From Methylomarinovum tepidoasis (GTDB lineage: Bacteria; Pseudomonadota; Gammaproteobacteria; Methylococcales; Methylothermaceae), in NCBI RefSeq assembly GCF_030294985.1, contig NZ_AP024718.1, forward strand, positions 2,309,001-2,373,000: a stretch of 64,000 nucleotides of DNA, written 5' to 3'. Both the position numbers and the translations under genes were made by a program. Below, piece by piece: positions 7,054 to 44,896 of the stretch. Every line of letters starts with the position of its first letter. Position 1 is the stretch's first letter. Under the pieces are notes generated by a model. That model was not told the DNA's origin. It saw only the letters and a program-made list of their open reading frames with translations, and searched no databases.

Positions 7054-8280
7054 TCAGGGGGGACGGCGCAAGATCAGGGCGGTGTTGATGCCGCCGAAGG
7101 CGAAATTGTGACTCGCCACCACCTCGCAGTCGAGCTTTCGGCCGCCCCCGGTGAGATAGTCCAGCGGCGCGCAGGCAGGATCGGGATGCTCCAGATTGAG
7201 ATTGGGATGGAACCAGCCCTCGCGCATCATTTCGATCGCCACCCAGGCTTCCAGCGCTCCGCAGGCTCCCAAGGTATGGCCGGTGTAGCTCTTGAGGGTG
7301 CTGACCGGCGTGCGCTCGCCGTAGACATCCCAGGTGGCCCAGCTCTCGGCCTCGTCTCCCTGGCGGGTGCCGGTGCCATGAGCACTGACGTAACCCACCG
7401 CTTGCGGCGGTAGGCCGGCATCCTCCAGCGCCAGCTCCATCGCCCGGCGCATGGTGGGGCGCGACGGCTGGGTGACGTGGGCGCCGTCGGCGTTGGTGCC
7501 GAAACCGACAATTTCGGCGTGGATGCGGGCGCCGCGCGCCAGGGCGTGGTCGCGGTCCTCCAGGATCAGGGTGCAGGCCCCCTCTCCCAGCACCAAGCCG
7601 TCGCGGTCGCAGTCGAAGGGGCGGGGGGTCGCCTGCGGCGTAGCGTTGCGGGTGCTGGCGGCGTACAGGGTGTCGAACACCGCCACTTCCGTGGGGCACA
7701 GCTCCTCCGCCCCGCCGGCGATCATCACCGTCTGGCGCCCGGTGCGGATCGCCTCGCAGGCGAAACCGATGGCCTGGCTGCCGGAAGTGCAGGCGCTCAC
7801 CGCGGGAACGATGCGACCGCGCACCTGGAAGAACAGGGCGACGTTGACCGCGGTAGTATGCCCCATCATCCTCAGATAGGTGCTGGCGTTGAGGCCGCCG
7901 AGGCGGTGGTGGAGCAGCATGGCGCCGAAATCGGCGATGGCGTCGGTGGAGCCCACCGAAGATCCGTAGGCCACGCCGGTTTCCCCGGAAGTGACGATGG
8001 GGTCGCCCAGCAGGCCGGCATCGGCCAGCGCCAGCTCGCTGGCGCGCACCGCCAGCAGCGACACCCGCCCCATGCTGCGGGTGCGCTTGCGGGTATAGTG
8101 CTCCGGCAGCTGGAAATCGGTCACCGGCGCCGCCAACAGGCAATGCAGCCCTTCGTAGGACGCCCACTCGTCGCGCCGGACCACGGCGTTGCGCCGCTGC
8201 CGCAGCCGCTCCCGCACCGTGGCCCAGTCCGACCCCAGGGGGGAGATGGCCGCCATGCCGGTGACCACCACCCGCTTCAT
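7054..8280 (-). CDS. beta-ketoacyl-ACP synthase (FabF-like), left APE operon
   Basis: The 408-residue condensing enzyme has a full catalytic set: nucleophile Cys164 in VSACTSGSQ, His in [14 protein letters not shown], and Lys and His in [15 protein letters not shown], ending [11 protein letters not shown]. It should perform decarboxylative condensation with malonyl-ACP during polyene extension or initiation, like ApeR of studied clusters. The start overlaps the ketoreductase stop as ATGA. Which extension step it handles, compared with the fused ketosynthase at 21581-23491, cannot be told from sequence. Confidence 0.9.
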
Positions 8281-9011
8281 CCGCTCAACCCCCCGTCGAC
8301 GGCGATGACCTGGCGGGTGACGTAGGCCGCCTCCGGCGACAGCAGGAACGCCACCAGTCCCGCCACTTCCTCCGGCTTGCCGAGACGACGCTGGGGGATG
8401 TGGGCTTTGATCTCGTCCAAAGGCAGGTCGGCGACCATGTCGGTATCGATCAGGCCGGGGGCGACACAGTTGACGGTGATGCGGCGCTTGGCCAGCTCCA
8501 GGGCCAGCGCCTTGGTAGCGCCGATGACGCCGGCCTTGGCGGCGCTGTAGTTGACCTGGCCGCGGTTCCCCAGGAGGCCGGCCACCGAGGCGATGGTGAC
8601 GATCCGCCCCGGCCGGCGGCGCTGGATCATGGGCAGCACCAGCGGCCGGAGCACGTTGTAGAAACCGTCCAGATTGGTATGCACCACCCGGTCCCATTCC
8701 TCCCCGGTCATGGCGGGAAACACCGCATCGGCGGTCAGGCCGGCGTTGCAGACCACGCCATAATAGGCCCCGTGGGCGGCGACGTCGGCCTCCAGCGCTG
8801 CGGTAGCGGCGGCCCGGTCGGCCACGTCGAAGGCCAGACAGCGCACGGTGACGCCGTGGTTCCGGCCCATTTCCTCCGCCAGCGCTTCGAGCAGCGCCAG
8901 ATTACGGCGGCAGGTCAGGACCAGATCGTACCCTTCGCGCGCCAGGCGCGCGGCGATGGCACGGCCGATGCCACGGCTGGCGCCGGTGACCAGGACGGTT
9001 TCAGACTTCAT
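8277..9011 (-). CDS. 3-oxoacyl-ACP reductase (FabG/ApeQ-like)
   Basis: The 244-residue short-chain dehydrogenase has the NADPH motif [13 protein letters not shown], the VCNAG segment and the catalytic pattern NYSAAKAGV, ending in the FabG-like [10 protein letters not shown]. It should reduce the 3-oxo group formed in each polyene extension round, ahead of dehydration by the ApeP/ApeI-like enzymes. It lies between the dehydratase (11-base overlap) and ketosynthase (ATGA overlap) genes, the ApeP-Q-R-like order typical of this pathway. Confidence 0.92.
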
Positions 9012-9468
9012 CAGAGCGCTCCAGATAGGCTTTCAGATCCTGCGGCAGCAGCACGTTCAGACGGGCATCGGCCAGTGGCCTGCCGGCTTCGATCGCGCAG
9101 TCGAACACGCACATGTCGTTGGCGGCCCGGAACACCCGCCGCGCCTGCACGCAAAGCTTTTGTCCCACCGAGAAATGATCCACCGCCGCCTCGAACCGCC
9201 GCGTTCCCAGCAGCAGGCCGGCCCGGATCGGCTCCCCCCGGTAAAGGCAATGATAGCCGGACCAGACGGCCACGGTCTGGGCCATGTACTCCAACCCCAC
9301 CCAGGCCGGGACGCGGCCCGGCTCCAGCAGAAACAGCGGATCGTCGCGCACGGTCAGGGCGGTACGAGCGCTCTCGTCGGTGATCTCCACCACCTCGTCC
9401 ACCAGGCGCATGGCGCCGCGCTGGGGCAGCAACTCGGTAATGGGGAAACGTCGGGGCGGGTAGTTCAC
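9001..9468 (-). CDS. ApeP-like hotdog dehydratase
   Basis: The roughly 155-residue hotdog protein begins [20 protein letters not shown] and has [17 protein letters not shown] and [12 protein letters not shown], the pattern of the ApeP class of 3-hydroxyacyl-ACP dehydratases. It is the first gene of the left operon. The GTG at 9468 gives the usual family length and has GAG upstream; an ATG at 9522 would add 18 residues. It faces away from the AMP-ligase gene, so promoters for both directions should lie in 9469-9565, where I see no convincing consensus. Confidence 0.82.
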
Positions 9469-9565
9469 GGCATCTCGATGCGGTTGACCGCAGATTTTTT
9501 CATGCCCGCCGGGGAAATGCAACGCGGTCGAGGCTGTGGCACAATGCCGCCTGCTTCATGAAACC

Positions 9566-10801
9566 ATGCCCATGCGTTCCAGAACCCCGCCCGACGAGCT
9601 CCAACGCTGGATCGCCGCCCTGGCGCCGGGGCTGCCGTGCCGCCGTCCCCTCGTCAACCTGTGCCGGGACCGCATCCGTTTCACCGCCGTCCTGCTGCAC
9701 GCCGCATGCCGGCGGCAACGCTGCCTGCTGCCACCCACCCACAGCCCCGCCGCCGTGGCGGAATTGCAGGCCCGTTTCCCCGACGCCGCCCTCGTGAGCG
9801 ATGACGCCATCGATCCTGCTCCTGCCTTTCCTCACCAGCCGTCTCCCTGGCCGCCCCTACACCGCTGGCGCGTTCGGCTGCGGCTTATGTGTTTCACCTC
9901 CGGCTCCAGCGGCCGGCCGGCGGCCTGGGAGAAGACCGGAGCGATGCTGACCCGCGGCGCCCGCTGCGCCCTCGCCGCCCTGGGTCTGGGCGGGCGGGAC
10001 TGGGACGTGGTCGCCACCACCCCGGCCCAGCACCTGTTCGCCCTGGAAACCGCGGTGATCTGGCCGCTCTGTTCCCGGCTGCGGCTGACCGCCGCCCGCC
10101 CCTTCTATCCCGAGGACATCCTCCGCCTGCTGGCCCGCAGCCCCCGCCCGGTCTTGCTGGTTTCCACCCCGCTGCAGCTGCGCGCCTGCCTGGGCTCGGC
10201 GCCGCGCTGGCGCAACCTGGCGGGCATCCTGTCGGCTACCGCCCCGCTCGATCCCGGCCTGGCACAGGAACTGGAAGCCGCCACCGGCCGGCCGGTGTGG
10301 GAAATCTACGGCAGCACCGAAACCCAGTCGCTCGCCTGGCGCCGCCCCGCCCGCGAGGAAGGCTGGCGCCCCTATCCCGGGGTCCGGCTGGACTGTAGCA
10401 CCGAAGGCGTCACCGTCCACGCGCCCTGGCTACCTCGTCCCGTCGTCCTCGCGGACCGCTTCGAACCGCTTGGCGGCGGCCGTCTGCGGATGCTGGGACG
10501 CAGCCGGGAGCTGATCAAGGTGGGCGGCAAGCGCATCGCCCTGGGGGAACTGAACCATCACATCCAGTCCATCGACGGCGTCGAGGACGGCCTGTTCTTT
10601 CCCACCGAGACCAACCGGGTGGGCGCCTTGGTGGTCAGCCGCCTGGACCGCCGCACCCTCCTCGCCCGGCTGCGCCAGCGCATCGACCCGGTGTTCCTGC
10701 CCCGGCCGCTGCTGTTCGTCGAGGCCATTCCCCGCACGCCCACCGGCAAGGTGAGACAGGCCGACCTGGAAGCGCTGCTCAGCCGCCTGCGCCGCCGCTG
10801 A
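9566..10801 (+). CDS. AMP-dependent acyl/aryl ligase of the APE cluster
   Basis: The 411-residue adenylate-forming enzyme is shorter than usual ligases. It has the P-loop LMCFTSGSSGRPAAWEKT, the middle motif WEIYGSTETQ, the hinge LGRSRELIKVGGKRI and the C-terminal Lys motif TPTGKVRQADL. APE clusters encode a ligase like this (ApeH-type) thought to load an aryl or acyl starter onto an ACP. It is read opposite to both flanking genes and overlaps the end of the desaturase-like gene by 23 bases. The substrate cannot be read from sequence. It gives the cluster a second activating enzyme beside the one at 14299. Confidence 0.8.
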   Translation: MPMRSRTPPDELQRWIAALAPGLPCRRPLVNLCRDRIRFTAVLLHAACRRQRCLLPPTHSPAAVAELQARFPDAALVSDDAIDPAPAFPHQPSPWPPLHRWRVRLRLMCFTSGSSGRPAAWEKTGAMLTRGARCALAALGLGGRDWDVVATTPAQHLFALETAVIWPLCSRLRLTAARPFYPEDILRLLARSPRPVLLVSTPLQLRACLGSAPRWRNLAGILSATAPLDPGLAQELEAATGRPVWEIYGSTETQSLAWRRPAREEGWRPYPGVRLDCSTEGVTVHAPWLPRPVVLADRFEPLGGGRLRMLGRSRELIKVGGKRIALGELNHHIQSIDGVEDGLFFPTETNRVGALVVSRLDRRTLLARLRQRIDPVFLPRPLLFVEAIPRTPTGKVRQADLEALLSRLRRR

Positions 10802-12308
10802 CCCGACGCCACAGCATCTCCTGCTCGGGGATGCCCAGCACCGCCTGGGCCGCCATCACCCCCGACAGCGCCGCCCCATACACCCCGCCGCCGGGGGTGG
10901 CCCAATGGCCAGCCAGATACAGCCCCGGCAGGGGCGTCTCCACCGCCGGCCGCCCCGGCCCCACCTGGCGCGGCGAGGCGGCCCAGCCGTAGGCGGCCCC
11001 CTGGTGATTGAAGGTATAGCGCATCATGGTGCGCGGGGTTCCCGACTCCACCCAGCGGATGCGCGCCCCGAGCCCCGGCAACCAAGCCTCGGCCCGGGCC
11101 AGCAGACGCTGCTGGAAGCGGGATTTCAGCACGCGCCAGTCCTCGGCAAGCCGGTAAGGGGCCAGGGTGGTCAGCATCAGCAAGTGGCCGCCATCGCGAC
11201 TTAGACCGGGATCGGTATGGGTCGGGCAGGTGACGGAGAACCAGTCCGGCGTCCCCCGGCAGGTGGCATCGAAGGCCCGTTCGTGGTCCCAGCCGGGATA
11301 GAAGAAAACCTCGTGCGCCGCAGTGGCCGGCGGCGGGGAATCGACACCGAGATAGGTGACGAAAGCTGACAGAGACGGCTGCATCCGCCGCAGCCGCTGC
11401 AGGTAACGGGACGGGACCCGGTCGGCCGCCACCAGATGCTCCATGGTGTGACGCAGATCGGCGTTGGCGATCACCACATCGGCCTTGATGTCCTGACCGG
11501 TTTCGGTCATCACCCCGGCAGCACGCCCGTCCGCCAGCACGATCCGGCGCACCCCGGTGCGGTAGAGCAACTCGCCGCCGGCCGCCTCGATGCACCCGGC
11601 CAGCGCGTCGGCCAGACGCTGGAACGAACCCTGGCAGTAACCGGCCCCGTCCCGGACGTAGCCCATGAACATCAGCGCCCAGTAGAGGAACGACAGCCGC
11701 TCCGGCGGCAAACCCAGGTAAGGCCAGAGTCCTGCCAGCACCGCCATCAGGCGGGGATCGGAGAAATGATCGGCCATGACCTGCGCCAGGGTCGCCTGAC
11801 GGAAACGGGCCAGCAAGGGAAAATCCTGTCCCTGGCCGGCGGCAGCACGACAAGCCTGGTCCGCCAGTGCTGCGGCCAGATCGAGAAACGCTTCCAGCCC
11901 CTGGCGGTGGGCCGGGAAGCGTTCCCCCAAAGATTCCCGCAGGGCGGTCAATCCCTGGGGCAGGGCGATGCGTCCGTCCGGAAACACCATATGGGCCACC
12001 GGATCCACCGCCAGGAACCGGACCCGGCCCTCCAGCCCCAGGCTCTCCACCAGCATCCCCAGCACTCGCCGGTGCGGGGGGCCGGAAGCGGCGCAGCCGC
12101 CGACCGTATGCACCCCGGCGTCACACTGGATGCCGCGGCGGCGGAAGCCGTGCAGGTAACCGCCGGGGCGGTCGTGACGCTCGATCACCAGCACCGAGCG
12201 CCCACAGCGGGCCAGCAAGGCCGCTGCCGTCAACCCGCCGATGCCGGCGCCGACAACCACGGCGTCGTAGCGGTGCCGCCGCGATTCCCGGTGGAAACCG
12301 GCCTGCAT
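10779..12308 (-). CDS. CrtI/CrtISO-like FAD-dependent desaturase or isomerase
   Basis: The 509-residue flavoprotein has a Rossmann FAD site (YDAVVVGAGIGGLTAAALL, VIERHDRPGGYLHGF) and the C-terminal segment LYLAGHWATPGGGVYGAALSG, which places it with phytoene desaturases, carotenoid isomerases and retinol saturases. On a polyene these enzymes oxidise, reduce or isomerise double bonds. It is not a core APE enzyme, so a tailoring role on the polyene is plausible but inferred. The start overlaps the preceding lipoprotein stop (TGATG), linking the two genes. Confidence 0.82.
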   Translation of the reverse strand: MQAGFHRESRRHRYDAVVVGAGIGGLTAAALLARCGRSVLVIERHDRPGGYLHGFRRRGIQCDAGVHTVGGCAASGPPHRRVLGMLVESLGLEGRVRFLAVDPVAHMVFPDGRIALPQGLTALRESLGERFPAHRQGLEAFLDLAAALADQACRAAAGQGQDFPLLARFRQATLAQVMADHFSDPRLMAVLAGLWPYLGLPPERLSFLYWALMFMGYVRDGAGYCQGSFQRLADALAGCIEAAGGELLYRTGVRRIVLADGRAAGVMTETGQDIKADVVIANADLRHTMEHLVAADRVPSRYLQRLRRMQPSLSAFVTYLGVDSPPPATAAHEVFFYPGWDHERAFDATCRGTPDWFSVTCPTHTDPGLSRDGGHLLMLTTLAPYRLAEDWRVLKSRFQQRLLARAEAWLPGLGARIRWVESGTPRTMMRYTFNHQGAAYGWAASPRQVGPGRPAVETPLPGLYLAGHWATPGGGVYGAALSGVMAAQAVLGIPEQEMLWRRVSGGAGG

Positions 12309-12721
12309 CAATCGGCGTAGCCGTCCTCGGTGGGATCGTAGATGACCTGATGGACCTTATAGACCCCGGTTCCCATGGCGCCGCTGGGCACGAACACGAT
12401 CCGTCCCAGCCCTTTGAAGTAGGCCTCCTTGCGGTGGACGTCGGGACCGAAGTAGAACGGAATCCACTGCTTGCCGGTCAGGTAGGTCTTGGTTTCGGTG
12501 GGTTGACCGAGGATGTCGTACACGCGGCCTTCGCTCATGCCCGGCTGGATCTTGGCCAGTGGGCTGTCGGCAGGTATTTCCGGCGTGGCGACAGCGCCTT
12601 CGCTCCGTTTGACCGGCGACCCCGCGGCCGCCTGCGATGCGTCCGAATGGCCGCCCTGACTGGCGCAGCCGCCCACCGCCAACCCCAGACAGACGCCCAG
12701 CAGCAACAACCGAATTCGCAT
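12308..12721 (-). CDS. BamE/SmpA-like small lipoprotein
   Basis: The 137-residue protein has a lipoprotein signal (LLLGVCLGLAVGGC) and, after a Ser/Ala-rich linker, a BamE/OmlA-like domain (LAKIQPGMSEGRVYDILGQPTETKTYLTG). It should sit in the outer membrane or periplasm. In APE clusters small lipoproteins accompany the export genes because the pigment ends in the outer membrane. A second lipoprotein with a similar GM...VIAAIGYP segment is at 27598-28167. It is read divergently from the carrier protein gene at 12796. Confidence 0.75.
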   Translation of the reverse strand: MRIRLLLLGVCLGLAVGGCASQGGHSDASQAAAGSPVKRSEGAVATPEIPADSPLAKIQPGMSEGRVYDILGQPTETKTYLTGKQWIPFYFGPDVHRKEAYFKGLGRIVFVPSGAMGTGVYKVHQVIYDPTEDGYAD

Positions 12722-12795: not shown

Positions 12796-13041
12796 ATGAA
12801 CGACATCAAATCCCGCCTGCGCGATTTCGTCCTCGGCGAGCTGGTTTACTGCGAAGACCCCGACGCTTTCGGTGACGACGACGATCTGCTCGAGGCCGGC
12901 CTCGACAGCCTCGGCATCATGCGCCTGATCATGTTCGCCGAACGTGAATTCGACGTCACCCTGCCCGACACCGACATCGAACCGGACACCGTCCGCACCC
13001 TCGACAACCTGAGCCGCTGGATCGAAGCCCACCGCCGATGA
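12796..13041 (+). CDS. free-standing carrier protein (ACP/PCP)
   Basis: The 81-residue acidic carrier has LLEAGLDSLGIM, with Ser38 as the phosphopantetheine site. The G-L-D-S-L form resembles the free-standing prolyl carriers such as PltL and RedO more than the DSID form of the two APE ACPs in this window. It is the first gene of a plus-strand set with a condensation-type protein (ATGA overlap), an adenylation enzyme and a dehydrogenase. It probably holds the amino acid that the adenylation enzyme activates. That partnership is inferred from order. Confidence 0.85.
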   Translation: MNDIKSRLRDFVLGELVYCEDPDAFGDDDDLLEAGLDSLGIMRLIMFAEREFDVTLPDTDIEPDTVRTLDNLSRWIEAHRR

Positions 13042-14318
13042 CGGCCCCCATCCCCTTGAACCCGGCCGACCATTTCCTCCTGACGATGGACCGGGAGATC
13101 CGCAAGGCCGGACTGCCCGGCGCCTGGTGCGCCATCGCCCTGGAACTGGCGGGCGAACCGGATATCGCCGCCCTGGAAGCCGGACTGGCCGAACTGGGCC
13201 GTCATTTTCCCGCCCTCGACGCCCGGCTGGTGTCACGGGGACGGCGTTTCGCCTGGCAGCCGCAGGGCGGCGGCATTCCCCTGCACACCCGCTGCTGGGA
13301 CGGCGACCTCAGCGCCGTACTGGCGGACCTGCTCAACGACGCCGGCGACGCCTTCGCCTCCCCGCCCCTGGATTGCCACTGCCTGACCGCCCCGGAACGC
13401 ACCCTGCTGGTGGTCCGCTGGCTGCATCCCCTGCTCGATGCCGGCGGGGTCAAACGCCTGCTCGATTATCTGGCGGCCGAACCGCAAACACGGGACCGCT
13501 ACCACGGCAGGGAGACCGCCCTGGTGCTGCAAAAGCTGCGCGGCTGGTCCTGGCTCCGGCGGCTGAAACTGCTGTGGCGCGGCAAACGCCACAACGACTG
13601 GATCGACCGCCTCGCCAGCAGCCAGCCGGCCCGAGCGACCGCAGGTCCCCGCCGGCTGCGTCATACCGTGCTACTCCTGGACCGGGACGAAACCAAAGCG
13701 GTGCTGGAAAGCGCCCGCCGTCGGGTGGGTCTCGGCGGCCAGACCCTGTATCTCATCGGCTGTCTGATGCGGGCGCTGGAGGCCACCGGCCCGGCTGAGC
13801 GGTGCGACGCCTGGTGCATTCCCTACGCCTTCGATTTGCGTCCCGGCAACGCCCCGGCGCCGGTCACCGGCAACCAGGTGGCGGCACTGTTCGCCCAGGC
13901 CGGGCACGCCGCCACCGCCGACCGCGACGCCCTGTTCCGTCACCTACGGGCCCAGCACGAAGACGCCATTCGCCGGGAGCTGGATCAGGCCTATCTGCCC
14001 CTGATGTGGCTGGGGCAGTGGCTGTCTCTGGAACGTTACGCGGAAATCCTGCGCCGGCAGAAGTCCGGCGGTGAACGGGCTTCGGCCTGGTTCTCCGACG
14101 TGGGCGAAATCCGCTTGCGCCGCCCGGATTTTCTCGGCCCCCCGGTCACCGGCGTCCATCACGCCTGTCAGGTCACCGCCCCGCCTTCGCTGGCGGTGCT
14201 GTTCGCCCGTTTCGACGGCCGCCTCCAGGCCGCCATCAACCATCTGGTCCCGGACCTGGACGAGGACTGGGCGGCGCGCTTCCGCAGGTATCTGCACGAT
14301 GAACTCCTTTCCGGCTGA
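13038..14318 (+). CDS. stand-alone condensation-domain-like acyltransferase
   Basis: The 426-residue protein resembles NRPS condensation/acyltransferase domains but is not part of a module. The HHxxxDG active site appears as LHPLLDAGG: the second, catalytic His (His130) and the Asp (Asp134) are present, while the first His is Leu and the following Gly is Ala. A later VGLGGQTLYLIGCLMRAL segment fits the second half of the fold. It may move the carrier-bound acyl group to an acceptor such as a polyene ACP, lipid or sugar. The acceptor is unknown. It overlaps both neighbours. Confidence 0.72.
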   Translation: MTAPIPLNPADHFLLTMDREIRKAGLPGAWCAIALELAGEPDIAALEAGLAELGRHFPALDARLVSRGRRFAWQPQGGGIPLHTRCWDGDLSAVLADLLNDAGDAFASPPLDCHCLTAPERTLLVVRWLHPLLDAGGVKRLLDYLAAEPQTRDRYHGRETALVLQKLRGWSWLRRLKLLWRGKRHNDWIDRLASSQPARATAGPRRLRHTVLLLDRDETKAVLESARRRVGLGGQTLYLIGCLMRALEATGPAERCDAWCIPYAFDLRPGNAPAPVTGNQVAALFAQAGHAATADRDALFRHLRAQHEDAIRRELDQAYLPLMWLGQWLSLERYAEILRRQKSGGERASAWFSDVGEIRLRRPDFLGPPVTGVHHACQVTAPPSLAVLFARFDGRLQAAINHLVPDLDEDWAARFRRYLHDELLSG

Positions 14319-15780
14319 CGCTTCCCCACTGCTGGGCCCTTTTCTGACCCAGGTGGCCGCCCGCCCTAACGCCCCCGCGTTGCGGGAGGGCGACCTAACC
14401 CTCAGCTACGCCGGGCTGGCCCGCCGGGCCGCCGCCATCGCCATTGAACTCGACCGCCTGCGCCTGCCGCCGGGCACGCCGGTGGCCATCGACCTGCCCC
14501 GCGGTATAGACGCCGCCTGCGCCGTGCTGGGCATCCTCGCCGCGGGCCATCCCTATCTGCCCCTCGACCCCAAAGCCCCACCGACCCGCCGCCAGGCCAT
14601 CGTGACCGACGCCCGTGCCGGCGCCGTCATCACCTGGGAAAACCGGACGGAACTGCCCACCGTACTCCCCCGGGGAGAGCATGACGCGCCCCTCGTCGGC
14701 CCAAGCCAGGTTGAAACCCTGGCGGCGATCCTCTATACCTCCGGCTCCACCGGCCGACCCAAGGGCGTCGCCCTCAGCCACGGCGCCATCGCCGCCTTCG
14801 CCGACTGGGCCCGTGACCTGGTGAGGCTGACGCCGGCCGACCGTATCGCCACCATCGCCCCGCTGGCGTTCGACCTGTCCACCTTCGACCTGTTCTCGGT
14901 GCTCGGCGCCGGAAGCTGTGCCGATTTCCTCCCCGACGGCCTGACCATGGCCCCGCGCCGTTTCACCCAGTGGCTGGCCGCCCGCGGCATCACCGGTTTC
15001 TACACCATCCCATCGCTGCTGGGATTCTGGGCCTGCAAGGGCGGGCTGGCGGAGATCCCGTTACCAGCGCTGCGTTTTCTCCTCTTCGCCGGCGAGCCGT
15101 TCCCCACCCCGGCGCTGAGGCGGCTGGCGGACGCCCTGCCCCGGGCGGCGCTGTTCAACCTCTACGGTCCCACGGAAACCAACGTCTGCTGCTGCTGGCC
15201 GGTGGACCGCGACCGTCTCGACAGCGAAGATCCGATTCCCATCGGCCGCCCCGCCTGCGGCGACGAATTGAAGGTCGATCCTGGCAGCGGTGAGCTGAAG
15301 GTCCGCGGCCCGACCCTGCTGTCCGGTTACTGGCGGGAAGGCCACCTGCGGCCGGCGCTGGATCGTGAGGGCTGGTACGCCACCGGTGACCGGGTGGAAG
15401 TCAACGAATATGGGGAATACGTCTGGCGCGGCCGCCTCGACCGCATGGTGAAGATCGCCGGCCACCGGGTGGAGCCGGCCGAGGTGGAGGCCGCCCTGCT
15501 GGCCCTGCCTGGAGTCACGGCCGCCGCGGTGGTCGCCTGCGACACCCCGGACGCCCCCCGGCTGCACGCCGCCGTGGTCGGCGACGGCACCCCCGCGGCC
15601 CTGCGCCTGGCGCTGCGCGCCCGCCTGCCCGGCTACATGGTTCCCGCCCGCATCACCCGCCTGCCCGCCCTGCCCCGGCTCGCCAACGGCAAGCCGGATC
15701 TGGAAGCGCTGCGCCGACAGCTGACGGGAAAAAGAAAAGCCGGTCGCGAGGACCGGCCGAGGGAGGGAGAGGAGGTTTAA
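14299..15780 (+). CDS. amino-acid adenylation enzyme, probably L-proline-specific (PltF/RedM-like)
   Basis: The 493-residue stand-alone adenylation domain has A3 LYTSGSTGRPKGV (about 145-157), A4 FDLSTFDLF (191), A5 NLYGPTETN (287-295), A8 GRLDRMVKIAGHRVEPAEVE and A10 NGKPD (Lys465). Aligning the pocket by hand to GrsA gives D192, L193, F196, T236, L262, A264, L288, V296, C297 and K465. Asp first means an alpha-amino acid. The L-A-L-V-C part resembles the prolyl code I recall for PltF. The last 20 residues (GKRKAGRED...) run past the usual family end and contain a hairpin. It overlaps the previous gene by 20 bases. Confidence 0.85.
   Translation: MNSFPADASPLLGPFLTQVAARPNAPALREGDLTLSYAGLARRAAAIAIELDRLRLPPGTPVAIDLPRGIDAACAVLGILAAGHPYLPLDPKAPPTRRQAIVTDARAGAVITWENRTELPTVLPRGEHDAPLVGPSQVETLAAILYTSGSTGRPKGVALSHGAIAAFADWARDLVRLTPADRIATIAPLAFDLSTFDLFSVLGAGSCADFLPDGLTMAPRRFTQWLAARGITGFYTIPSLLGFWACKGGLAEIPLPALRFLLFAGEPFPTPALRRLADALPRAALFNLYGPTETNVCCCWPVDRDRLDSEDPIPIGRPACGDELKVDPGSGELKVRGPTLLSGYWREGHLRPALDREGWYATGDRVEVNEYGEYVWRGRLDRMVKIAGHRVEPAEVEAALLALPGVTAAAVVACDTPDAPRLHAAVVGDGTPAALRLALRARLPGYMVPARITRLPALPRLANGKPDLEALRRQLTGKRKAGREDRPREGEEV
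15729..15757 (-). terminator. terminator-like hairpin facing the minus strand
   Basis: GCCGGTC (15739-15745) and GACCGGC (15751-15757) form a seven-base-pair stem with a GCGAG loop. On the minus strand the stem is followed by TTTTCTTTTT (15738-15729). It lies in the last codons of the plus-strand adenylation gene. It could stop transcription coming leftward from the halogenase-like gene at 18295, which would otherwise be antisense to the dehydrogenase. Confidence 0.5.
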
Positions 15781-15847: not shown

Positions 15848-16933
15848 ATGGTCATGAACCTTTCCGCCCTCGGCCGCACCGGCCTGTTCCGCCATGCCGT
15901 CCCGGAATCCTGGGGCGGTCTGGAAGACGGCTTTTCCGGGCTGCTCCAGGCCCATATCCGCCTGGGGCGGGAATACCGCGATCCCGGCCTGGTGCTGGCG
16001 GCGGGCGCCCACCTGTGGGGAGCGCTGTTCCCCCTGCTGCGTCACGGCGACGATGCCCAGCGCAACCGCTGGCTACCGCGACTGGTCAGCGGGCAGTGGC
16101 TCGGCGGCCACGCCATCACCGAACCGCAGGGCGGCTCCGACCCGGCGACGATGACGGCCCAGGCCATCCGCTGCGGCGAAGGCTTCCGCCTCGAGGGGGA
16201 AAAGCGCTACATCACCAACGTGCCGGCGGCCGACCTGCTGATCGTCTACGCCCGTCTCGACGAGGTCGTGTCCGCCTTCGTGGTGCTGAAGGACGATCCC
16301 GGCGTGCACTATCGCCAGGACCATACCGTGGCCGCTTGCCGCAGCGCACCGATGGGCGAGGTCGTGCTCGAGGGCTGCCGGCTTCCCGCCGGCCGCCTGC
16401 TGGGCAGGCCCGGCGCCGGTCTGGCGCTGATCCAGCAGGCGCTGGAGTGGGAGCGGGCTTTCATCTTCGCCGGCATCGCCGGGGTGATGGAATGGCAGCT
16501 GGAACGGGTGATCGCCTTCAGCCGCGAGCGCTGCAGCGGCGATTCCCACCTGGGCCGCCACCAGGCCATCGCCCACCGCATCGCCGACATGCGCACCCGC
16601 CTCGACACTGTCCACCTGTGGCTGCGGGAATGCGCCCGCCTGGCCGACGCCGGCCAGCGCCTGACCCTGGCCTCGGCCCAGACCAAGCTGGTGGCTTCGC
16701 AAGCCTTTCTGGAATCGACCCTGGACGCCCTCCACATCCTCGGCGCCCGGGGGCTGGAGGAAGCCGGCGGCATGAGCGCGTGGCTCAACGATGCTGCCGC
16801 CGGGCGGCTGTTTTCCGGCTCCGACGAGGCGCTGAAGAATCTGATCGCAGCGCTGCTGGGGACCGGGGAAGGCTACCGGCCCGGCATCAGAACTGGAGAT
16901 GATCCAGCACGTCGCCGTCGAAATGCAGGGTGA
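15848..16933 (+). CDS. acyl-CoA dehydrogenase-like prolyl-carrier oxidase (PltE/RedW/PigA-like), N-terminally short
   Basis: The 361-residue flavoprotein has HAITEPQGGSDPATM, LEWERAFIFAGIAGVMEWQLE and LFSGSDEALKNLIAALLG. The usual acyl-CoA dehydrogenase Glu of the C-terminal EGT motif is Ser here. Instead Glu202 in the WER motif sits where isovaleryl-CoA dehydrogenase and, as I recall, PigA-type prolyl oxidases have their base. These enzymes turn carrier-bound proline into pyrrole-2-carboxyl. The frame starts at FRHAVPESWGG, about 45 residues later than typical members, so the first helices are missing. It could be impaired. It converges on the halogenase-like gene. Confidence 0.8.
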   Translation: MVMNLSALGRTGLFRHAVPESWGGLEDGFSGLLQAHIRLGREYRDPGLVLAAGAHLWGALFPLLRHGDDAQRNRWLPRLVSGQWLGGHAITEPQGGSDPATMTAQAIRCGEGFRLEGEKRYITNVPAADLLIVYARLDEVVSAFVVLKDDPGVHYRQDHTVAACRSAPMGEVVLEGCRLPAGRLLGRPGAGLALIQQALEWERAFIFAGIAGVMEWQLERVIAFSRERCSGDSHLGRHQAIAHRIADMRTRLDTVHLWLRECARLADAGQRLTLASAQTKLVASQAFLESTLDALHILGARGLEEAGGMSAWLNDAAAGRLFSGSDEALKNLIAALLGTGEGYRPGIRTGDDPARRRRNAG

Positions 16934-16984: not shown

Positions 16985-18295
16985 TCAGATCCACAGCCTC
17001 GGCAACCGCCGGGCCTTGTCTTCCAGCCGCCCGTCCAACGCTGTCAATCCCGCAGCCTCGATCAACCGGCGGAAATGGCGGGTGCGGTGGGTGATGTGGG
17101 ACACCGCCAGCATCAGCTCCAACTCCCGCCGCGGCACCGAGCGCATGAAGCGCCTCACCAACTCGAAATCGACGCCGTTGACGCCGACGTCTCCCAGAGC
17201 CAGGGCGCGGGAGAAGCTGTAGAACTGGTGCAGGCGGTGGGCGCACAGTTGGGCGTGGCGCCGCCGCCGGGGCGGGTCGTGCAGGGATTCGCGGATCGCC
17301 AGGGCGGCCAGCGACGCCCCGTAGAAGGCGTTGAGCACCCCGTGGGAGAAGACCGGATCGACGAAACCGCCGGCATCGCCGATGCAGTAAAGATTGTCCT
17401 CGGCTACCTGCGTCACGTGATAGGAAAAGTCCGGCCGCCCGCTCAAGGAACCTTCGACGAAGCGGGCCGGGGCCAGCAGCTCCCGCAGACAGGGCGCCCG
17501 AGCGCAGGTTTCCAGGAAGTAACGCTGGCGCGCCGCCCCCTCCAGTCCCCGGACCCGGTCACGGTAAATCACCAGGCCGACGCTGGTGCTCCGGCGCAGT
17601 GGGATGTGCCAGATCCACCCGTCCTCGTAGGCGCAGACGAAGGTGACCGGACGCACGGCCTTTAGCGCTGCGAAATCCCGCGCCCGGCCCTCGCCGTCGA
17701 TGAAGCGGGAATTTTCGAAATAGCCCCAGAAGGACAGAAACTGATGGGGGGACCGGGCCAAATGACGGCGGCCGAGGCGGCGCGCCACCAGGCTCGATGC
17801 CCCGCTGGCGTCCACCAGATAGCGGCAGCGCAGCGAGCCCCGTGCCGGCGGGTTTCCGCAGCGATCCACCCAGCGCAGCCGGATTTCCTCCCCGGGCACC
17901 ACGTCGGTGACGGTCACCTGCTCGAACACCCGCGCCCCGCAGCGCTTGGCGTGGCGCAGCAACAGGTGGTCGAAGACGTCGCGCTCCACGTGCAGCGCCG
18001 GACGCTCAAAGCCGAAGTCGGCAAAGCGGATGCGGTGGATCTCCCCGTCCCACACCGTGATCCCCCCCGCCTTGGCGACGAATCCCTCGGCCTCGATCGC
18101 CGGGGTGGCGCCGGTCAGATCGGTGTATTTCCAGAAATGGGGAATCAGGCTCTCGCCCACCATCGGCCGCGGATACCGGGCCCGCTCCAGCACCACCACG
18201 TCGAACCCGTCCCGGGCCAGCAATGCGGCGGCGCTGCTGCCGGCAGGACCGGCGCCGATGACGGCGATGTCGCAGTGACGGGGCGGCCCGCTCAT
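16985..18295 (-). CDS. flavin-dependent halogenase-like protein (carrier-substrate type)
   Basis: The 436-residue FAD enzyme has the dinucleotide motif VIGAGPAGSSAAALL, GESLIPHFWKY, Lys75 in GFVAKAGG at the position of the catalytic halogenase lysine, and the halogenase signature WIWHIP (227-232). The family halogenates tryptophan or carrier-bound pyrroles and phenols through hypohalous acid; relatives lacking halogenase activity also exist. Beside a proline-to-pyrrole gene set, a PltA-like pyrrole halogenase is the natural guess. It is read convergently to the dehydrogenase. It needs a flavin reductase, which is not encoded nearby. Confidence 0.8.
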   Translation of the reverse strand: MSGPPRHCDIAVIGAGPAGSSAAALLARDGFDVVVLERARYPRPMVGESLIPHFWKYTDLTGATPAIEAEGFVAKAGGITVWDGEIHRIRFADFGFERPALHVERDVFDHLLLRHAKRCGARVFEQVTVTDVVPGEEIRLRWVDRCGNPPARGSLRCRYLVDASGASSLVARRLGRRHLARSPHQFLSFWGYFENSRFIDGEGRARDFAALKAVRPVTFVCAYEDGWIWHIPLRRSTSVGLVIYRDRVRGLEGAARQRYFLETCARAPCLRELLAPARFVEGSLSGRPDFSYHVTQVAEDNLYCIGDAGGFVDPVFSHGVLNAFYGASLAALAIRESLHDPPRRRRHAQLCAHRLHQFYSFSRALALGDVGVNGVDFELVRRFMRSVPRRELELMLAVSHITHRTRHFRRLIEAAGLTALDGRLEDKARRLPRLWI

Positions 18296-20408: not shown

Positions 20409-21584
20409 CTACCGCCCAAACCGCCCCCTAAGCAGCGTCTCCTGCCACGGATTGTTCCCGCTCCACAGATTCCCCGCCAGAAGTGCGCTGATGGCCTGTT
20501 TGATGGCCGCATCTCGGTGGGCCTCGAAGAAGACGTTGTGGATCAGGTCCGACTGGTAGAAGCGTTCGACGAAGGCGTACATGGTGTTGAAGCCCAGGGC
20601 GTGGGCCGGGTCGTCGGGGCGGTGGAGCTCAGGATCGGCCTCGGTGCCGGCCTCCAGGCCGAGGTGGATGCGGTCGGCGGCCCGGGCGGCGGAGGTCAGG
20701 GCCAGGAACACGCCGGAGGAGAACACCGGGTCGAGGAAGCCGGCGGCGTCGCCCACGCTGATGAAACGGGCCCCGTAGCGGCGGTGGTTGAGATAGCTGA
20801 AGTTGGCCTCGGCCTGGACCGGTAGCTGTCGTCGCGTGCCATCGAGCAGCCGCTGCAGCCGTGGGGATGCGGTCACGTAGCGCTGGAACAGGGCTTCGGT
20901 GGACAGTCCCTGGGAACGCCCTCGGCTTGACACCAGGCCGATGCTGACCTTGTGCCCGGCCAGGGGAATCACCCACATCCAGCCGATGTCCACCATCAGA
21001 ATCCAGATGTTGCCGTGGGCGTAGAGTGCGTCGGCCAGCTCCTCCCGCACCGGGGCGTAGTGGCTGTAGAGGGCGAAACGGCCCAGGTGGCGGATGCGTT
21101 CGACGGCGCGCTGGCGCCGGCCCAGCAGGGCGGTACGGCCGGTGGCGTCGATGAAGTAACGGCCCTGGAACCGGCCTTCAGGGGTCGTCACCGCCACCCG
21201 CTCCGCCGTGAACTCGACGGCCGCCACCGGACAGCGGTCGCGGCATTCGACCCCAAAGCGGGCGGCGTTGTCCCAGAGCCGGCGGTCGAACTCGCTTCGC
21301 TCCACCTGATAGGCGCGGTGCTCGCCGCTGAGCTGGAAGAACATCTCCTGGCCCGTGGCCTCGTCGATGAACACCGCCCCGGCCTTGAACACGCTGCCCT
21401 GGCTCCAATCCAGCCCCAGGCGGCGGATCACCGGCTCGCTGTAGGGGAGCATCGACTCGCCGATGTGGAAACGGGGGTGGCGGTCCCTTTCCAGCAGCAG
21501 CACCCGGTGGCCGTACTGGGCCAGCAGGGTGGCGGCGGTGCAGCCGGCAGGCCCGCCGCCGGCGACGATGACATCGTAGTTCAT
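20409..21584 (-). CDS. flavin halogenase-like FAD enzyme, right APE operon
   Basis: The 391-residue protein has VAGGGPAGCTAATLLAQYG, GESMLPYSEP, Lys67 in GSVFKAGAVF at the catalytic lysine place, and WMWVIP (202-207), again the WxWxIP signature. Related genes occur in xanthomonadin and other APE clusters, where the pigments can be halogenated. It could halogenate or otherwise oxidise the polyene head group. It is the last gene of the right operon, and its ATG overlaps the ketosynthase stop as ATGA. A broken partial copy lies at 19514-19612. Confidence 0.8.
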   Translation of the reverse strand: MNYDVIVAGGGPAGCTAATLLAQYGHRVLLLERDRHPRFHIGESMLPYSEPVIRRLGLDWSQGSVFKAGAVFIDEATGQEMFFQLSGEHRAYQVERSEFDRRLWDNAARFGVECRDRCPVAAVEFTAERVAVTTPEGRFQGRYFIDATGRTALLGRRQRAVERIRHLGRFALYSHYAPVREELADALYAHGNIWILMVDIGWMWVIPLAGHKVSIGLVSSRGRSQGLSTEALFQRYVTASPRLQRLLDGTRRQLPVQAEANFSYLNHRRYGARFISVGDAAGFLDPVFSSGVFLALTSAARAADRIHLGLEAGTEADPELHRPDDPAHALGFNTMYAFVERFYQSDLIHNVFFEAHRDAAIKQAISALLAGNLWSGNNPWQETLLRGRFGR

Positions 21585-23491
21585 TGCAGTTCCACGCTCC
21601 ATCCGCTACCCAAAGGTACGGTTTGCCGGTTTCCGTTCTCCAGGGCCCGGACCAACGCCAGCCCCGCCAGCACCGGTGAGGAAGCTACCAGCGGCTGCAA
21701 ATCCGCCGGCAATGCCGCCCTGGTCTGCTCCGGCGGGCCGATCCGCCCGCCCCGTTCCAGCACCCAGGCCAGAGCGACCGGATAGCGTCCCATGCCCGGC
21801 TGCAGATGCGGCGGCCAGCGTTCCTCGTAGCACACCAGCAGCACCCGTTCGGCCTCGGTCAGCAGCCGGGTCCAGGCCTCCAGCCAGGCCATGGCGAAAG
21901 TGGCCTCCCCCGCTCCCAGGGCGGTGGTGGGCTGACGGCTGCCGGTGGCGATGCTCCAGTAGCCGGCGGCGGCGTTGTGGACCGAATTGTGAAAGGCGGT
22001 GGGCGAGACGCAGCCGTCGGGTTTGGCCAGTTCGACGAGCAGGCGGTCGGTGACCTGCATCTCGCCGCCGACGCTGGCGAATACCGCCGGCAGTTCCCGG
22101 GGATCGACCCCGGCGCGTTCGCAGGCCAGAAGCCCAGCGCACAGCGCCAGCCGGGTCGCTTCGCCGGTACGGCGGCGGATGACGGCGGGAATCCGTTTTG
22201 GATCCGGCGAAGCCGTCTCGACATTCAGGGAGACGCTCCAGTCGTTCTCGGGGGCACAAACCACCGCCGCCCGCACGCCGATCCCGGTCACAGACACCGG
22301 TTCGGTGACGGCGTCGGCTTCCCATCCCAGCAGCACGCTGGCGTTGCTGCCGCCGAAGCCGAAGGCGTTGCCCAGCACCCGTCCCGCCTGCTGCCGTCGG
22401 GGGTGGCGTTGCAGGTTCAGACGGCAGGCCGGATCGGGGGTTTCCAGCCCGCAGGTGCCCGGCAGCCAGCCGTGTTCCAGGGCTTCCAGCAGGGCCACCG
22501 TTTCCAACGCCCCCGAGGCGCCCAGGGTGTGTCCCAAAAGGCCCTTGAGGCCGCCACAGGGCACCCGGTCGCCGAACAGGCGTTCGACCGCCTTGGCCTC
22601 GGCCAGATCGTTGAGGGGGGTGGCGGTGGCGTGGAGCTTGACATAGTCGACCCGCGCCGGCTCCAGCCCAGCCAGGGCCGCCGCCATCGCCGCCTCGGCG
22701 CCGCGGCCTTCCGGGTCCGGGGCGGCCATGTGGTGGGCGTCGGAGGATTCGCCCACCGCCAGCAGCCGGGGACAGGCCCGGTTCGCCTTGGCGGCCTTCT
22801 CCAGCAGCAGCAGGGCCGCGGCCTCACCGATGTTGATACCGCAGCGGTCGGCGTCCAGCGGCCGGCAGGCGGCCTCGGCCACCAGACCGAGGCTGTGGAA
22901 ACCGAACAGGGTCAGGCTGCACAGGGTGTCCACCCCGGCCACCAGCACCGCGTCACAGATATCGGTCAGCAGCAGTCGCCGGGCCGTACCCAGAGCCTTG
23001 GCGCTTGAGGAACAGGCGGTGGAAACCGCCAGCACCGGGCCGGCGAGACCCAGGTCCCGGGCCATGGCCTCGGCAGTGGCGTGGACCGCGTGGCGGTGGA
23101 TGAAATCGAAGTCTGCCGGCATTTCCCCATGGGCGACGAAATGGCGGTAGGCGGCCTCGGAATCGTAGATGCCCGAGGTGCTGGTCCCCAGCACCAGCCC
23201 GACCCGTACCGCGCCGTAACGGTCCAGGGCGGCCGCGATCCGGTGGCGGAAACCGTCCTGTTCCAGGGCGGCCCGGGCCAGACGCGCGTTGCGGCACTCG
23301 TAGCGCGCCAGTTCCGGCGGCAGGGGCGGCAGCGGGTCGGGATACTCCCCCACCAGGGTGGGAAACGGCAGCGGCAGCAGGTGGATCGGCCGCAGACAGG
23401 GCTTGTTGGCCAAAATGGCAGCCAGCAGCGCCTGCCGTCCGGCACCGGCGGCGCCCAAAACCTGCCAGGTGGTGATGGCGACCGGCCTCAT
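21581..23491 (-). CDS. ketosynthase fused to a chain-length-factor-like ketosynthase domain
   Basis: The 636-residue product is two proteins in one. Residues 1-390 form a condensing enzyme with Cys160 (VSTACSSSAK), His287 (LHATATP), Lys and His321 (KGLLGHTLGA) and NAFGFGGSNAS. From about 398, VSVTGIGVRAAVV starts a second, shorter domain with FHNSVHNAAAGYWSIATG, the pattern of the ketosynthase-like chain-length partner (ApeC type) of aryl polyene synthases. In studied systems the two are separate proteins that form a heterodimer. The ATG at 23491 overlaps the previous gene as ATGA. Confidence 0.88.
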   Translation of the reverse strand: MRPVAITTWQVLGAAGAGRQALLAAILANKPCLRPIHLLPLPFPTLVGEYPDPLPPLPPELARYECRNARLARAALEQDGFRHRIAAALDRYGAVRVGLVLGTSTSGIYDSEAAYRHFVAHGEMPADFDFIHRHAVHATAEAMARDLGLAGPVLAVSTACSSSAKALGTARRLLLTDICDAVLVAGVDTLCSLTLFGFHSLGLVAEAACRPLDADRCGINIGEAAALLLLEKAAKANRACPRLLAVGESSDAHHMAAPDPEGRGAEAAMAAALAGLEPARVDYVKLHATATPLNDLAEAKAVERLFGDRVPCGGLKGLLGHTLGASGALETVALLEALEHGWLPGTCGLETPDPACRLNLQRHPRRQQAGRVLGNAFGFGGSNASVLLGWEADAVTEPVSVTGIGVRAAVVCAPENDWSVSLNVETASPDPKRIPAVIRRRTGEATRLALCAGLLACERAGVDPRELPAVFASVGGEMQVTDRLLVELAKPDGCVSPTAFHNSVHNAAAGYWSIATGSRQPTTALGAGEATFAMAWLEAWTRLLTEAERVLLVCYEERWPPHLQPGMGRYPVALAWVLERGGRIGPPEQTRAALPADLQPLVASSPVLAGLALVRALENGNRQTVPLGSGWSVELQ

Positions 23492-23868
23492 GGCGCCCCG
23501 GTGGTCGTCGGCAGTCCCAACCTGCGCCAACGGGCCATGTGCCCTTCCAGCAACAGCACCTCCCGGCAGCCCAGGTCCCGCAGTTTGGAGGCCGCGTACG
23601 TCGCCCGCGGTCCGTGCTCGCAGGTCACCACCACCGGCTCGTTGTGGCAGCGTCGCAGCACTTCGGGCGGGGTCTTCTCGGCCACCTCGGTGAAAGGGAC
23701 GTGAACGGCACCGGGAATGTGGCTGCTGCGGTATTCCCCCTCGGAGCGGACATCGAGCACCAGAGGTGCCTGCCCGCCCTCCAGGGCCCGGGCCAGATCG
23801 CGGGGGGCGACGGCGGGGCCGCCGCAGGCGGCCAGCAGGAAAAGCAACAGCAGACAGACAAAACGCAT
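23488..23868 (-). CDS. rhodanese-domain lipoprotein
   Basis: The 126-residue protein has a lipoprotein signal (MRFVCLLLLFLLAAC) and one rhodanese domain: PLVLDVRSEGEYRSSHIPGAVHVPF and the active-site loop VVVTCEHGPRATYAA, with the catalytic Cys present. It should be periplasmic and membrane-anchored, able to carry a persulfide or to act as a thiol-redox protein. It overlaps the exporter gene (TGATG) and the ketosynthase gene (ATGA), so it is a fixed member of the operon. Its role in polyene export is unknown. Confidence 0.82.
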   Translation of the reverse strand: MRFVCLLLLFLLAACGGPAVAPRDLARALEGGQAPLVLDVRSEGEYRSSHIPGAVHVPFTEVAEKTPPEVLRRCHNEPVVVTCEHGPRATYAASKLRDLGCREVLLLEGHMARWRRLGLPTTTGAP

Positions 23869-26132
23869 CAGGACTCCATCGATTCGGAAAGCGGGACGAC
23901 CAGCACCGGGCACCAGAGAAAGCCGCTCACCACCCCACAGGTCACCGCCAGCGCCAGAGCCTGCAACACCGGCTGGCTCGCCAGCCCCAGGGCGGCGAAG
24001 GCAGTCACCGTGGTCAGCATCGAGGCTCCCATGGCTTGATAGGTGGCGGCGATATCGCCGCCGCGCCGTTCCCGGTAGAAGATAGCGTAATCCACGCAGA
24101 TGGCAATGGCCAACAGGGCGGCAAGCAGGTGAAAAAAGCTGAGGGGAAAACCAGCGGCGGCAAAACCGATCAGGATGGTGGTCCCGCCCAGCAGGGGTGG
24201 CGCCAGCAGTTGCAGAGCGGTCAGGGGGCTGCGATAGCGCCAGGCCAGAAGCGCCCAGATGACGGCGACGCCGGCGGCCAGGGTCTTCAGAGCGCGGCGG
24301 CGGTACTGCTGCGCCAGGCGGTTGACGTGGTCGTGCTGACTGAAATAGCGCACCCCCTCCAGCCCCGCCAAGGCGGCGCGCACGGCGTCTGGGTCGTGGC
24401 TGCCGAGCCAGATGGCCAGCTCGGCCCGGTCCTGGCGGGTCCGGACCTGGCCCACCAGAATCTCCGCCAGCCGCGGGTCGGGGACCGGCAGCCACGGCGG
24501 TTCGCTGCGCACCAGCTGTGATAACGGTTCCACCGTCAGACCGGCGGTTGCCAGGGCCCGGCGCCAGGCGGCGACGAATTCCGGGGTCACGTGGCTTTGG
24601 TACTGGCGCCAGTTGCGCGCCTGCAGGGACTGGGAGACGTACCAGGGATAGAGGGGCTGGAAGCCGGCCAGCGCCCTTGTTTCCCGGAGCCGGCGCAGCA
24701 CCAGCGTGGCGGTCTCGGCGCGCTGAAGGGCGGTTTCCAGGTCCGGAGCCTCGACCAACACCGCCCGTCCCGGTTCGATGCCCCCCAGCCGGGCGCGCAG
24801 CTGGCGGTCCTGGCGCTTGAGCTCGGGATCGACCGCCGCCAGCTTTTCCAGGTCGTCGAGCCATTGCAATCGCGGCCAAGCCGCCCCTGCGGCGGCCACG
24901 GCCAGCACCGCGGCCAGTTGCAAGCCCTTGCGGTGGCGGCGGGCGAAACCGAGCCAGGCCGTCAGGGGCCGCAAGCGTGGACGGCGCAGGCATACGGCGG
25001 CGATGAAGTCCGGCAGGAAGTAACCGGTCGCCAGCAGGGCGGCGACGATGCCGGCGCCGGCAAAGACGGCGACCTGCTCGAAACCCGGATAGCCGGTAGC
25101 CCCCAGGGCCAGATAACCGATCAGGGTGGTGCCGCCGCCCAGCATCAGTGCCGGCCACAGCCGCCGCACCACCGCCCGTGGCTCCCGGCCGCCGCAGTGG
25201 GCCAGTACGTGAATGGGGTAGTCGATGCACACCCCCACCAGGGTGCCGCCCAGGGCCAGGGTCAGGGCATGGACGTAACCGAAGACCAGCTGGGTCGCCA
25301 GCGCCCCGGCTGCGGCGGCGAAGGCCAGCACCACCGCCACCGCCAGCAGGCTGCGCAGGGTGCGGAACAGCCCCAGGAACACCGCCAGCACGCCGAGGGT
25401 GGAGGCGGCGGTGACCCGGGCCACGTCCCGCTGGATCCGTTCCTGAGCCCGGACCGCGAACACCGGCACCCCGGTGAGGGTGAGCCGGTAAGTCCCGGCC
25501 TCCGGAGTGTCGAGCAGTTGCCGCAGGCGCTGCTGCAGCACCCGCTGGCGGTCGAGGGCGAAGGCGTCGGCCGCGGATTCGATCACCAGCACCTCGAAAT
25601 TCCCGTGCCGGCGCGGCCGCAGGCGGTCGCGCCAGTCCTCGAGGGCGTGGAGGGTCAGCAGCAGGGGGTCGCGGCGGGCGATGGCCTGGACCCAGTCGCC
25701 GTAGGAGGACAGCAGCGCCTGTCTGAGGTTCTCGGCCCGCCTGGGCAGGGTGGCGGGATCGAACAATTGCGGGGCTTCGCGCGCCGGGTCGAGGCTGTAG
25801 ATTACCTCGGCGTGATCGGCATAATCCTGCAGCAGATCCAGGAACGCCAGCGGCGGTTCGGACAGGGACCACACCCGGGCGACGCCCTCGACCCGGGCCA
25901 ACTGCCGCCGCAGCCGGCGGGCGAAGGGCGTCACCGACCGTTCTCCTTGGGCCAGCTCGATCAGCAGCAGGTAACGGCGGGCGAAGCGGGTCTGCTGCAG
26001 CCGCCCGAGCATGCCCGCCTCTCCGCCGGCGCCGAGGAAGAACACCGTCAGCCGGGTTTCCAGCCGCAGCTGGGCCGCCAGCACGCCGGCCAGCACCAGC
26101 AGCAGGCCGACGGCGGCCAGACGCCGCCTCAT
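23868..26132 (-). CDS. MMPL/RND-family exporter of the APE cluster
   Basis: The 754-residue protein has the two-fold RND layout: an N-terminal helix, a large periplasmic loop (about 30-240), a block of five membrane helices including LAVFLGLFRTLRSLLAVAVVLAF and GGTLVGVCIDYPIHVL, a second loop, and a second helix block with AIAICVDYAIFYRERRGG. Members in APE clusters (COG4258 type) are thought to move the polyene lipid out of the inner membrane using the proton gradient. It overlaps the LolA-like gene as ATGA, which suggests hand-off between the two. Confidence 0.88.
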   Translation of the reverse strand: MRRRLAAVGLLLVLAGVLAAQLRLETRLTVFFLGAGGEAGMLGRLQQTRFARRYLLLIELAQGERSVTPFARRLRRQLARVEGVARVWSLSEPPLAFLDLLQDYADHAEVIYSLDPAREAPQLFDPATLPRRAENLRQALLSSYGDWVQAIARRDPLLLTLHALEDWRDRLRPRRHGNFEVLVIESAADAFALDRQRVLQQRLRQLLDTPEAGTYRLTLTGVPVFAVRAQERIQRDVARVTAASTLGVLAVFLGLFRTLRSLLAVAVVLAFAAAAGALATQLVFGYVHALTLALGGTLVGVCIDYPIHVLAHCGGREPRAVVRRLWPALMLGGGTTLIGYLALGATGYPGFEQVAVFAGAGIVAALLATGYFLPDFIAAVCLRRPRLRPLTAWLGFARRHRKGLQLAAVLAVAAAGAAWPRLQWLDDLEKLAAVDPELKRQDRQLRARLGGIEPGRAVLVEAPDLETALQRAETATLVLRRLRETRALAGFQPLYPWYVSQSLQARNWRQYQSHVTPEFVAAWRRALATAGLTVEPLSQLVRSEPPWLPVPDPRLAEILVGQVRTRQDRAELAIWLGSHDPDAVRAALAGLEGVRYFSQHDHVNRLAQQYRRRALKTLAAGVAVIWALLAWRYRSPLTALQLLAPPLLGGTTILIGFAAAGFPLSFFHLLAALLAIAICVDYAIFYRERRGGDIAATYQAMGASMLTTVTAFAALGLASQPVLQALALAVTCGVVSGFLWCPVLVVPLSESMES

Positions 26133-43969: not shown

Positions 43970-44018
43970 CTATTTCCTCCTCAGATGTGTCTGTCGATGT
44001 CGATGCGCGCAAAATCCA

Positions 44019-44762: not shown

Positions 44763-44824
44763 TATTTACCTCCAAAGTCGCTTGTTGTTGCTTTACCACC
44801 AGCCTTTAAGACCGGCTTCTCTTC

Positions 44825-44867
44825 GCCTCCCTGGCAGGGAGGCCACCAGCGCCCCGGCGGCCTCCCT
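44825..44867 (-). promoter_or_regulatory. mutually exclusive hairpins between pmoC and pmoA
   Basis: In the RNA, AGGGAGGCC (44867-44859) can pair with GGCCTCCCT (44844-44836), or GCCTCCCT (44843-44836) can pair with the later AGGGAGGC (44832-44825). The two stems share the middle strand. No T run follows, so it is not a simple terminator. It is more likely an RNA-processing or stability element setting pmoC against pmoAB mRNA levels. Confidence 0.6.
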
Positions 44868-44896
44868 CAACAAACATCCAGCAAGCTAGATGTCGA

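Follow-up and report, generated by a model that had tools for sequence, protein, structure and literature searches.

A predicted stand-alone L-proline adenylation enzyme and its conserved four-gene cassette in an aryl-polyene-type cluster of Methylococcales

Introduction

The window, as we call the whole 64,000-nucleotide stretch of DNA that was analysed, contains a gene for an adenylation (A) enzyme whose substrate pocket, when read by hand, appeared to resemble the prolyl class. The gene lies among genes of an aryl-polyene (APE) type pathway. Few bacterial natural products are as widespread as the aryl polyenes, whose head groups, as far as known to us, are aryl acids. The locus raises the question of whether the enzyme is indeed a prolyl enzyme and, if so, what an activated proline might serve for in such a cluster.

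Results

The adenylation enzyme and its pocket code

The A gene (14299..15780, + strand, Met1 at 14299) is real and intact and encodes a protein of 493 amino acids. A Pfam scan of the product found PF00501 and PF13193 only, with no fused carrier or condensation domain, and the adenylation core motifs TSGSTGRPKG, YGPTE, YATGD, GRLDRMVKIAGHRVEPAEVE and NGKPD are all preserved. When the family profile of the enzyme was compared with solved structures, PltF (388 bits) and PigI (351 bits) appeared as the top single-A-domain relatives; LgrA and 8XJZ outrank PltF in the PDB, a rank that results at least partly from the summing of two adenylation domains. In a small tree, PltF, represented by a fragment, was placed beside the A-enzyme family rather than beside the modular prolyl domains, with a modest support of 0.69. 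A structure predicted from the window sequence and one homologue had a mean pLDDT of 45, too low for use. Judged by its alignments and family profile, the gene product adds a new member to an established class, the stand-alone L-proline adenylation enzymes of the PltF type.

To define the pocket, the enzyme was aligned with GrsA (1AMU), PltF (6O6E) and 19 orthologues. Positions 235, 236, 239, 278, 299, 301, 322, 330, 331 and 517 of GrsA correspond to D192, L193, F196, Y235, L262, A264, L288, V296 and C297 (14872..15189, + strand) and to K465 (15691..15693, + strand), respectively. The GrsA letters were checked against PDB entry 1AMU and those of PltF against 6O6E; the GrsA fragment in the alignment stops short of 517, and K465 was assigned as the lysine of the NGKxD motif common to PltF. 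The sequence-only reading had given the code as D-L-F-T-L-A-L-V-C-K. Its letters do sit at the residues it named, and nine of the ten pair correctly with GrsA, but the residue opposite T278 of GrsA is Tyr235 (15001..15003, + strand) and not Thr236 (15004-15006, + strand), which is one residue too far, so that the corrected code is DLFYLALVCK. The interval assigned to the code in that reading, 14872-15195, covers D192 to C297 and omits K465. It had also placed the code of PltF close to this one, with differences mainly at the third and fourth positions; the closeness is real, but PltF has DLLYLALVCK, with Tyr at the fourth position, and the alignment with this prolyl enzyme leaves a single mismatch in ten positions, the third.

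For stand-alone L-Pro enzymes, the published pocket consensus, flanked by the invariant D and K, is L(L/F)YLALVC, while modular prolyl domains have a different code, VQ(Y/F)IAHVV (PMC3874040). The A enzyme fits the stand-alone consensus at all eight variable positions, whereas 20 other A-domains of the same order, taken as controls, matched it at 0-4 of the eight, so that the match is more than chance would give; a control A-domain with the modular prolyl code DVQFIAHVVK scored 2/8. Within the family, the pocket residues either do not change or change conservatively: all 19 orthologues (46-90% identity) keep DLFY[LIV]A[LF]VCK. A one-position correction of a hand-read code that was nearly right has thus turned a resemblance into an exact match, and the assignment to the prolyl class has become stronger. 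The earlier argument that the leading Asp points to an alpha-amino acid is likewise borne out: D192 is invariant in the 19 orthologues, and an acyl-CoA-ligase-like variant found in genome G035 (see below) has no Asp there.

A four-gene unit around the adenylation gene

On the + strand, the A gene is the third in the order carrier protein, condensation-like ORF, A enzyme, acyl-CoA-dehydrogenase-like (ACAD) protein, and the first three genes overlap. The peptidyl carrier protein (PCP; 12796..13041, PF00550 at 42 bits) bears a GLDSL motif with the Ser codon AGC at 12907-12909, and its stop overlaps the start of the condensation-like ORF (ATGA), which in turn overlaps the A gene by 20 nt.

The ACAD-like protein (15848..16933, + strand) was assigned from NCBIfam and PDB profile matches. 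Its top NCBIfam models are PigA (248 bits, cut-off 500) and the RedW-type L-prolyl-PCP dehydrogenase (239 bits, cut-off 650), both below their curated cut-offs, and the top PDB match of its profile is the AnaB prolyl-ACP dehydrogenase (4IRN, 289 bits). The invariant E202 aligns with the glutamate of the MEWER motif in AnaB, so that a catalytic-type Glu stands at the same alignment position, and the usual C-terminal position of the catalytic Glu is occupied by Ser. Unlike PigA, RedW and AnaB, the protein has an N-terminus shorter by about 40 residues, a feature of the whole methanotroph family (the window member and 18 orthologues). We propose that it belongs with the L-prolyl carrier-protein dehydrogenases.

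The condensation-like ORF (13038..14318, + strand, 426 aa) has no match of its own in Pfam or NCBIfam and only a weak profile match to C domains, with WLHPLLDAGG in place of HHxxxDG. PF00668 matches two of the 19 family members (best 7e-5), and a comparison of the family with C domains by hhalign gave an E-value of 0.0024 and a probability of 12%. The family motif is W-x-H-P-x-x-D-A-x-G, where H130 and D134 are invariant. Against the PDB, the family profile picked up only artefacts from repeat proteins, together with marginal matches to PapA5-like proteins and heterocyclization domains; the predicted structure, made from the window sequence and one homologue, had a mean pLDDT of 36, too low for a fold search. 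The ORF probably encodes a very divergent transferase of the condensation superfamily.

Taken together, the pocket code, the top relatives PltF and PigI, the neighbouring ACAD of prolyl type and the dedicated PCP in the operon lead us to infer that the substrate is L-proline; the enzyme is very probably a stand-alone L-proline:carrier-protein ligase of the PltF/RedM/PigI type. An enzyme that activates another amino acid (D-alanine, serine or a proline analogue), with the ACAD acting on some other carrier-bound acyl group, is improbable. It is true that pocket codes predict and do not prove, and that LmbC is a stand-alone prolyl enzyme shifted to proline analogues (PMC3874040), but the complete fit to the L-Pro consensus and the prolyl type of the adjoining dehydrogenase argue against such a shift here, as does the retained V296, since Gly at that site accompanies the alkylproline specificity of LmbC (PMC3874040). 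The other two candidates, D-alanine and serine, were rejected on the family scores and the pocket code; the DltA model for D-alanine ligases, TIGR01734, scored far under its cut-off (165.8 bits against 559.85).

Conservation and distribution

In each of the 19 orthologous loci, which span several families of the order, the A and ACAD genes lie close together, and in 18 they are accompanied by the PCP and condensation-like genes. Some loci have the four-gene unit apart from the polyene genes, and in genome G056 the condensation-like gene is on a separate contig. A search across 311 Methylococcales genomes gave a match to the A enzyme at E<=1e-90 in 97, and in about 90 the match is clearly an A enzyme of this kind by score. 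Among 61 relatives, the A enzyme occurs in 20 genomes and the APE exporter subtype also in 20, with both present in 19 (Fisher p ~1e-13, a value that ignores shared ancestry).

Outside the order, in a wider sample of the class, the condensation-like protein was clear in one genome only, G119, with one further weak match, and the family appears nearly confined to Methylococcales. The G119 protein (locus L090, G119:C8:4341-5642, E 2.7e-158) is encoded in a genome of 1.4 Mb that belongs to a different family of this class; lateral transfer or a related symbiont is a possible explanation.

The aryl-polyene-type setting

On the - strand, the genes at 7054..9522 encode, by family matches, a ketosynthase (NF006587, 681 bits), a FabG-type reductase and an ApeP-like dehydratase. 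Next to them stand an ApeH-like AMP ligase (9536..10801, + strand, PF00501) and a CrtI-like FAD oxidoreductase (10779..12311, - strand, PF01593, with TIGR02734 below its cut-off); a CrtI-like gene was also seen beside the clusters of G035 and G013. Beyond the cassette, likewise on the - strand, follow two FAD-dependent halogenase-like proteins, the first (16985..18295, PF04820 at 89 bits) with WIWHIP and K75, the second (20409..21602, solved relatives including CndH, PltA and 5BUK) with WMWVIP and K73, both thus having the WxWxIP motif and the Lys at the expected place. A fused ketosynthase of APE type, with a second half resembling a ketosynthase/chain-length factor (CLF), is encoded at 21581..23530 (- strand; NF006618, 431 bits against a cut-off of 407; PF13723). 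An ApeM-like RND/MMPL exporter lies at 23868..26132 (- strand); it gave weak matches to hopanoid/RND families and co-occurs with the cassette.

Compared with the APE gene set described for E. coli (PMC8253772), the window cluster has the corresponding ketosynthases, CLF-like half, FabG, dehydratases, two ACPs, ApeH-like ligase and RND/LolA-type export genes. By gene content, the setting is a new variant of an APE-type cluster, one that carries a prolyl cassette. The genome contains the chorismate lyase UbiC, so 4-hydroxybenzoate can be made; an aromatic ammonia lyase was not found in the genome. Elsewhere in the window, at 42725-45718 (- strand), lie pmoC, pmoA and pmoB for particulate methane monooxygenase, by which the host reads as a methanotroph.

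Among the cassette-bearing genomes, the ApeH-like ligase was found in 17 of 20 at E<1e-60 and was weak or missing in G016 and G056. The one genome with the exporter subtype and no A enzyme, G035, carries a variant cassette in an APE-type cluster (L048, 11067-15373, G035:C30), in which a carrier protein and an FAD oxidoreductase are joined by a distant relative of the condensation-like protein and by an acyl-ligase-like A enzyme with the pocket HFVYITAL. This suggests that the acyl-supplying module is swappable and that G035 has a swapped starter module.

Discussion

The pathway that we propose builds on what can be read directly in the DNA, namely the gene, whose motifs are intact, the code as corrected, and the four-gene unit, which is conserved and co-occurs with the APE exporter subtype; the order of the reactions, the PCP as partner, the acceptor of the condensation-like protein and the halogenation are what we infer. 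In the biosynthesis of pyoluteorin and prodigiosin, prolyl-PCP is oxidised by four electrons to pyrrolyl-2-carboxyl-PCP. By analogy, the A enzyme would convert L-proline to prolyl-AMP and load it on the phosphopantetheine of the upstream PCP (12796-13041), and the ACAD-like flavoprotein would carry out the four-electron oxidation of prolyl-S-PCP to pyrrolyl-2-carboxyl-S-PCP, a step that we consider likely. The condensation-like protein would then hand the pyrrolyl acyl group over to an acceptor of the APE-type lipid pathway around it, and one or both of the halogenase-like proteins may add halogen to the ring or to the product.

Two refinements of this scheme differ in the fate of the pyrrole. 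According to the first, pyrrolyl-PCP is the polyene starter, which the APE ketosynthases extend with malonyl-ACP to yield a (halogenated) pyrrolyl polyene instead of the usual hydroxyphenyl polyene. We regard this as a serious possibility, held with less than even confidence. There is a precedent, since pyrrolyl-PCP is passed straight to a ketosynthase in pyoluteorin and prodigiosin biosynthesis. Moreover, one APE exporter subtype has the cassette as an obligate partner, and the variant cassette of G035 in the same cluster type is what would be expected of a swappable starter module; this swap, together with the weak or missing ApeH-like ligase in G016 and G056, favours the starter role. The retention of that ligase in most cassette genomes, however, along with the chorismate lyase, favours an additional aryl starter, so that the polyene need not be started from proline at all. 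Furthermore, we know of no pathway of this kind where priming needs a condensation-like enzyme.

According to the second refinement, the pyrrole-2-carboxyl group is a pendant, attached by the condensation-like protein through an ester or amide bond to the completed APE lipid or its anchor, while the ApeH-like ligase activates an aryl starter; this reading we put forward tentatively. Enzymes of the condensation superfamily classically use carrier-protein donors to form C-N or C-O bonds, which suits such a transfer, and the ApeH-like ligase and UbiC are retained. The exporter subtype goes along with the cassette, which is what a difference in the exported lipid would lead one to expect. On the other hand, the assignment of the condensation-like fold is weak, the acceptor of this protein is hypothetical, and the genomes G016 and G056 fit this refinement poorly. 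Because the ApeH-like ligase is retained, we give neither role of the pyrrole, starter or pendant, a clear preference.

Among known systems, PltF of the pyoluteorin pathway in Pseudomonas protegens (6O6E, 7THQ) is nearest in type to the window enzyme: both are stand-alone L-Pro ligases with a separate PCP, they differ at one of the ten code positions, and both have the GRxDxM variant in the A8 motif. PltF is nevertheless distant overall, and it serves pyoluteorin, whereas here the setting is an APE-type lipid pathway with a condensation-like gene. RedM, PigI, CloN4, CouN4 and AnaC, which were compared partly via the published consensus, share L(L/F)YLALVC and the PCP and ACAD partners; to our knowledge, none of them is found in an APE cluster. 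The APE clusters of E. coli CFT073 and Xenorhabdus and the xanthomonadin clusters resemble the window in their two ACPs, ketosynthases with a CLF-like half, FabG, dehydratases, ApeH-like ligase, glycosyl/acyltransferases, COG4648-like membrane protein, LolA-like protein and RND exporter, and the Xanthomonas cluster also in having a halogenase. In contrast, the prolyl cassette (PCP, condensation-like protein, A enzyme and ACAD) has no counterpart in them, and the window differs further in its two halogenase-like genes and the CrtI-like gene. Our searches of open-access papers turned up no account of methanotrophs with pyrrolyl polyenes or prolyl cassettes.

It is conceivable, though short of probable, that roughly one in three Methylococcales methanotrophs produces a polyene lipid with a (halogenated) pyrrole, where the prolyl-to-pyrrolyl cassette and an undescribed condensation-like transferase supply the head group to an APE type II synthase whose starter module can be swapped, as in G035. 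If true, an order-wide pyrrole-forming cassette grafted on an APE cluster would mean new head-group chemistry and a candidate new transferase, and it would point to a testable membrane pigment or lipid in methanotrophs, organisms important for methane cycling.

Finally, the order contains a second class of stand-alone A enzymes, with the code DLFFLCLIAK, which shares four of the eight positions of the prolyl consensus; its members are encoded at loci L059 (G039:C1:191392-192480) and L060 (G054:C17:53202-54278).
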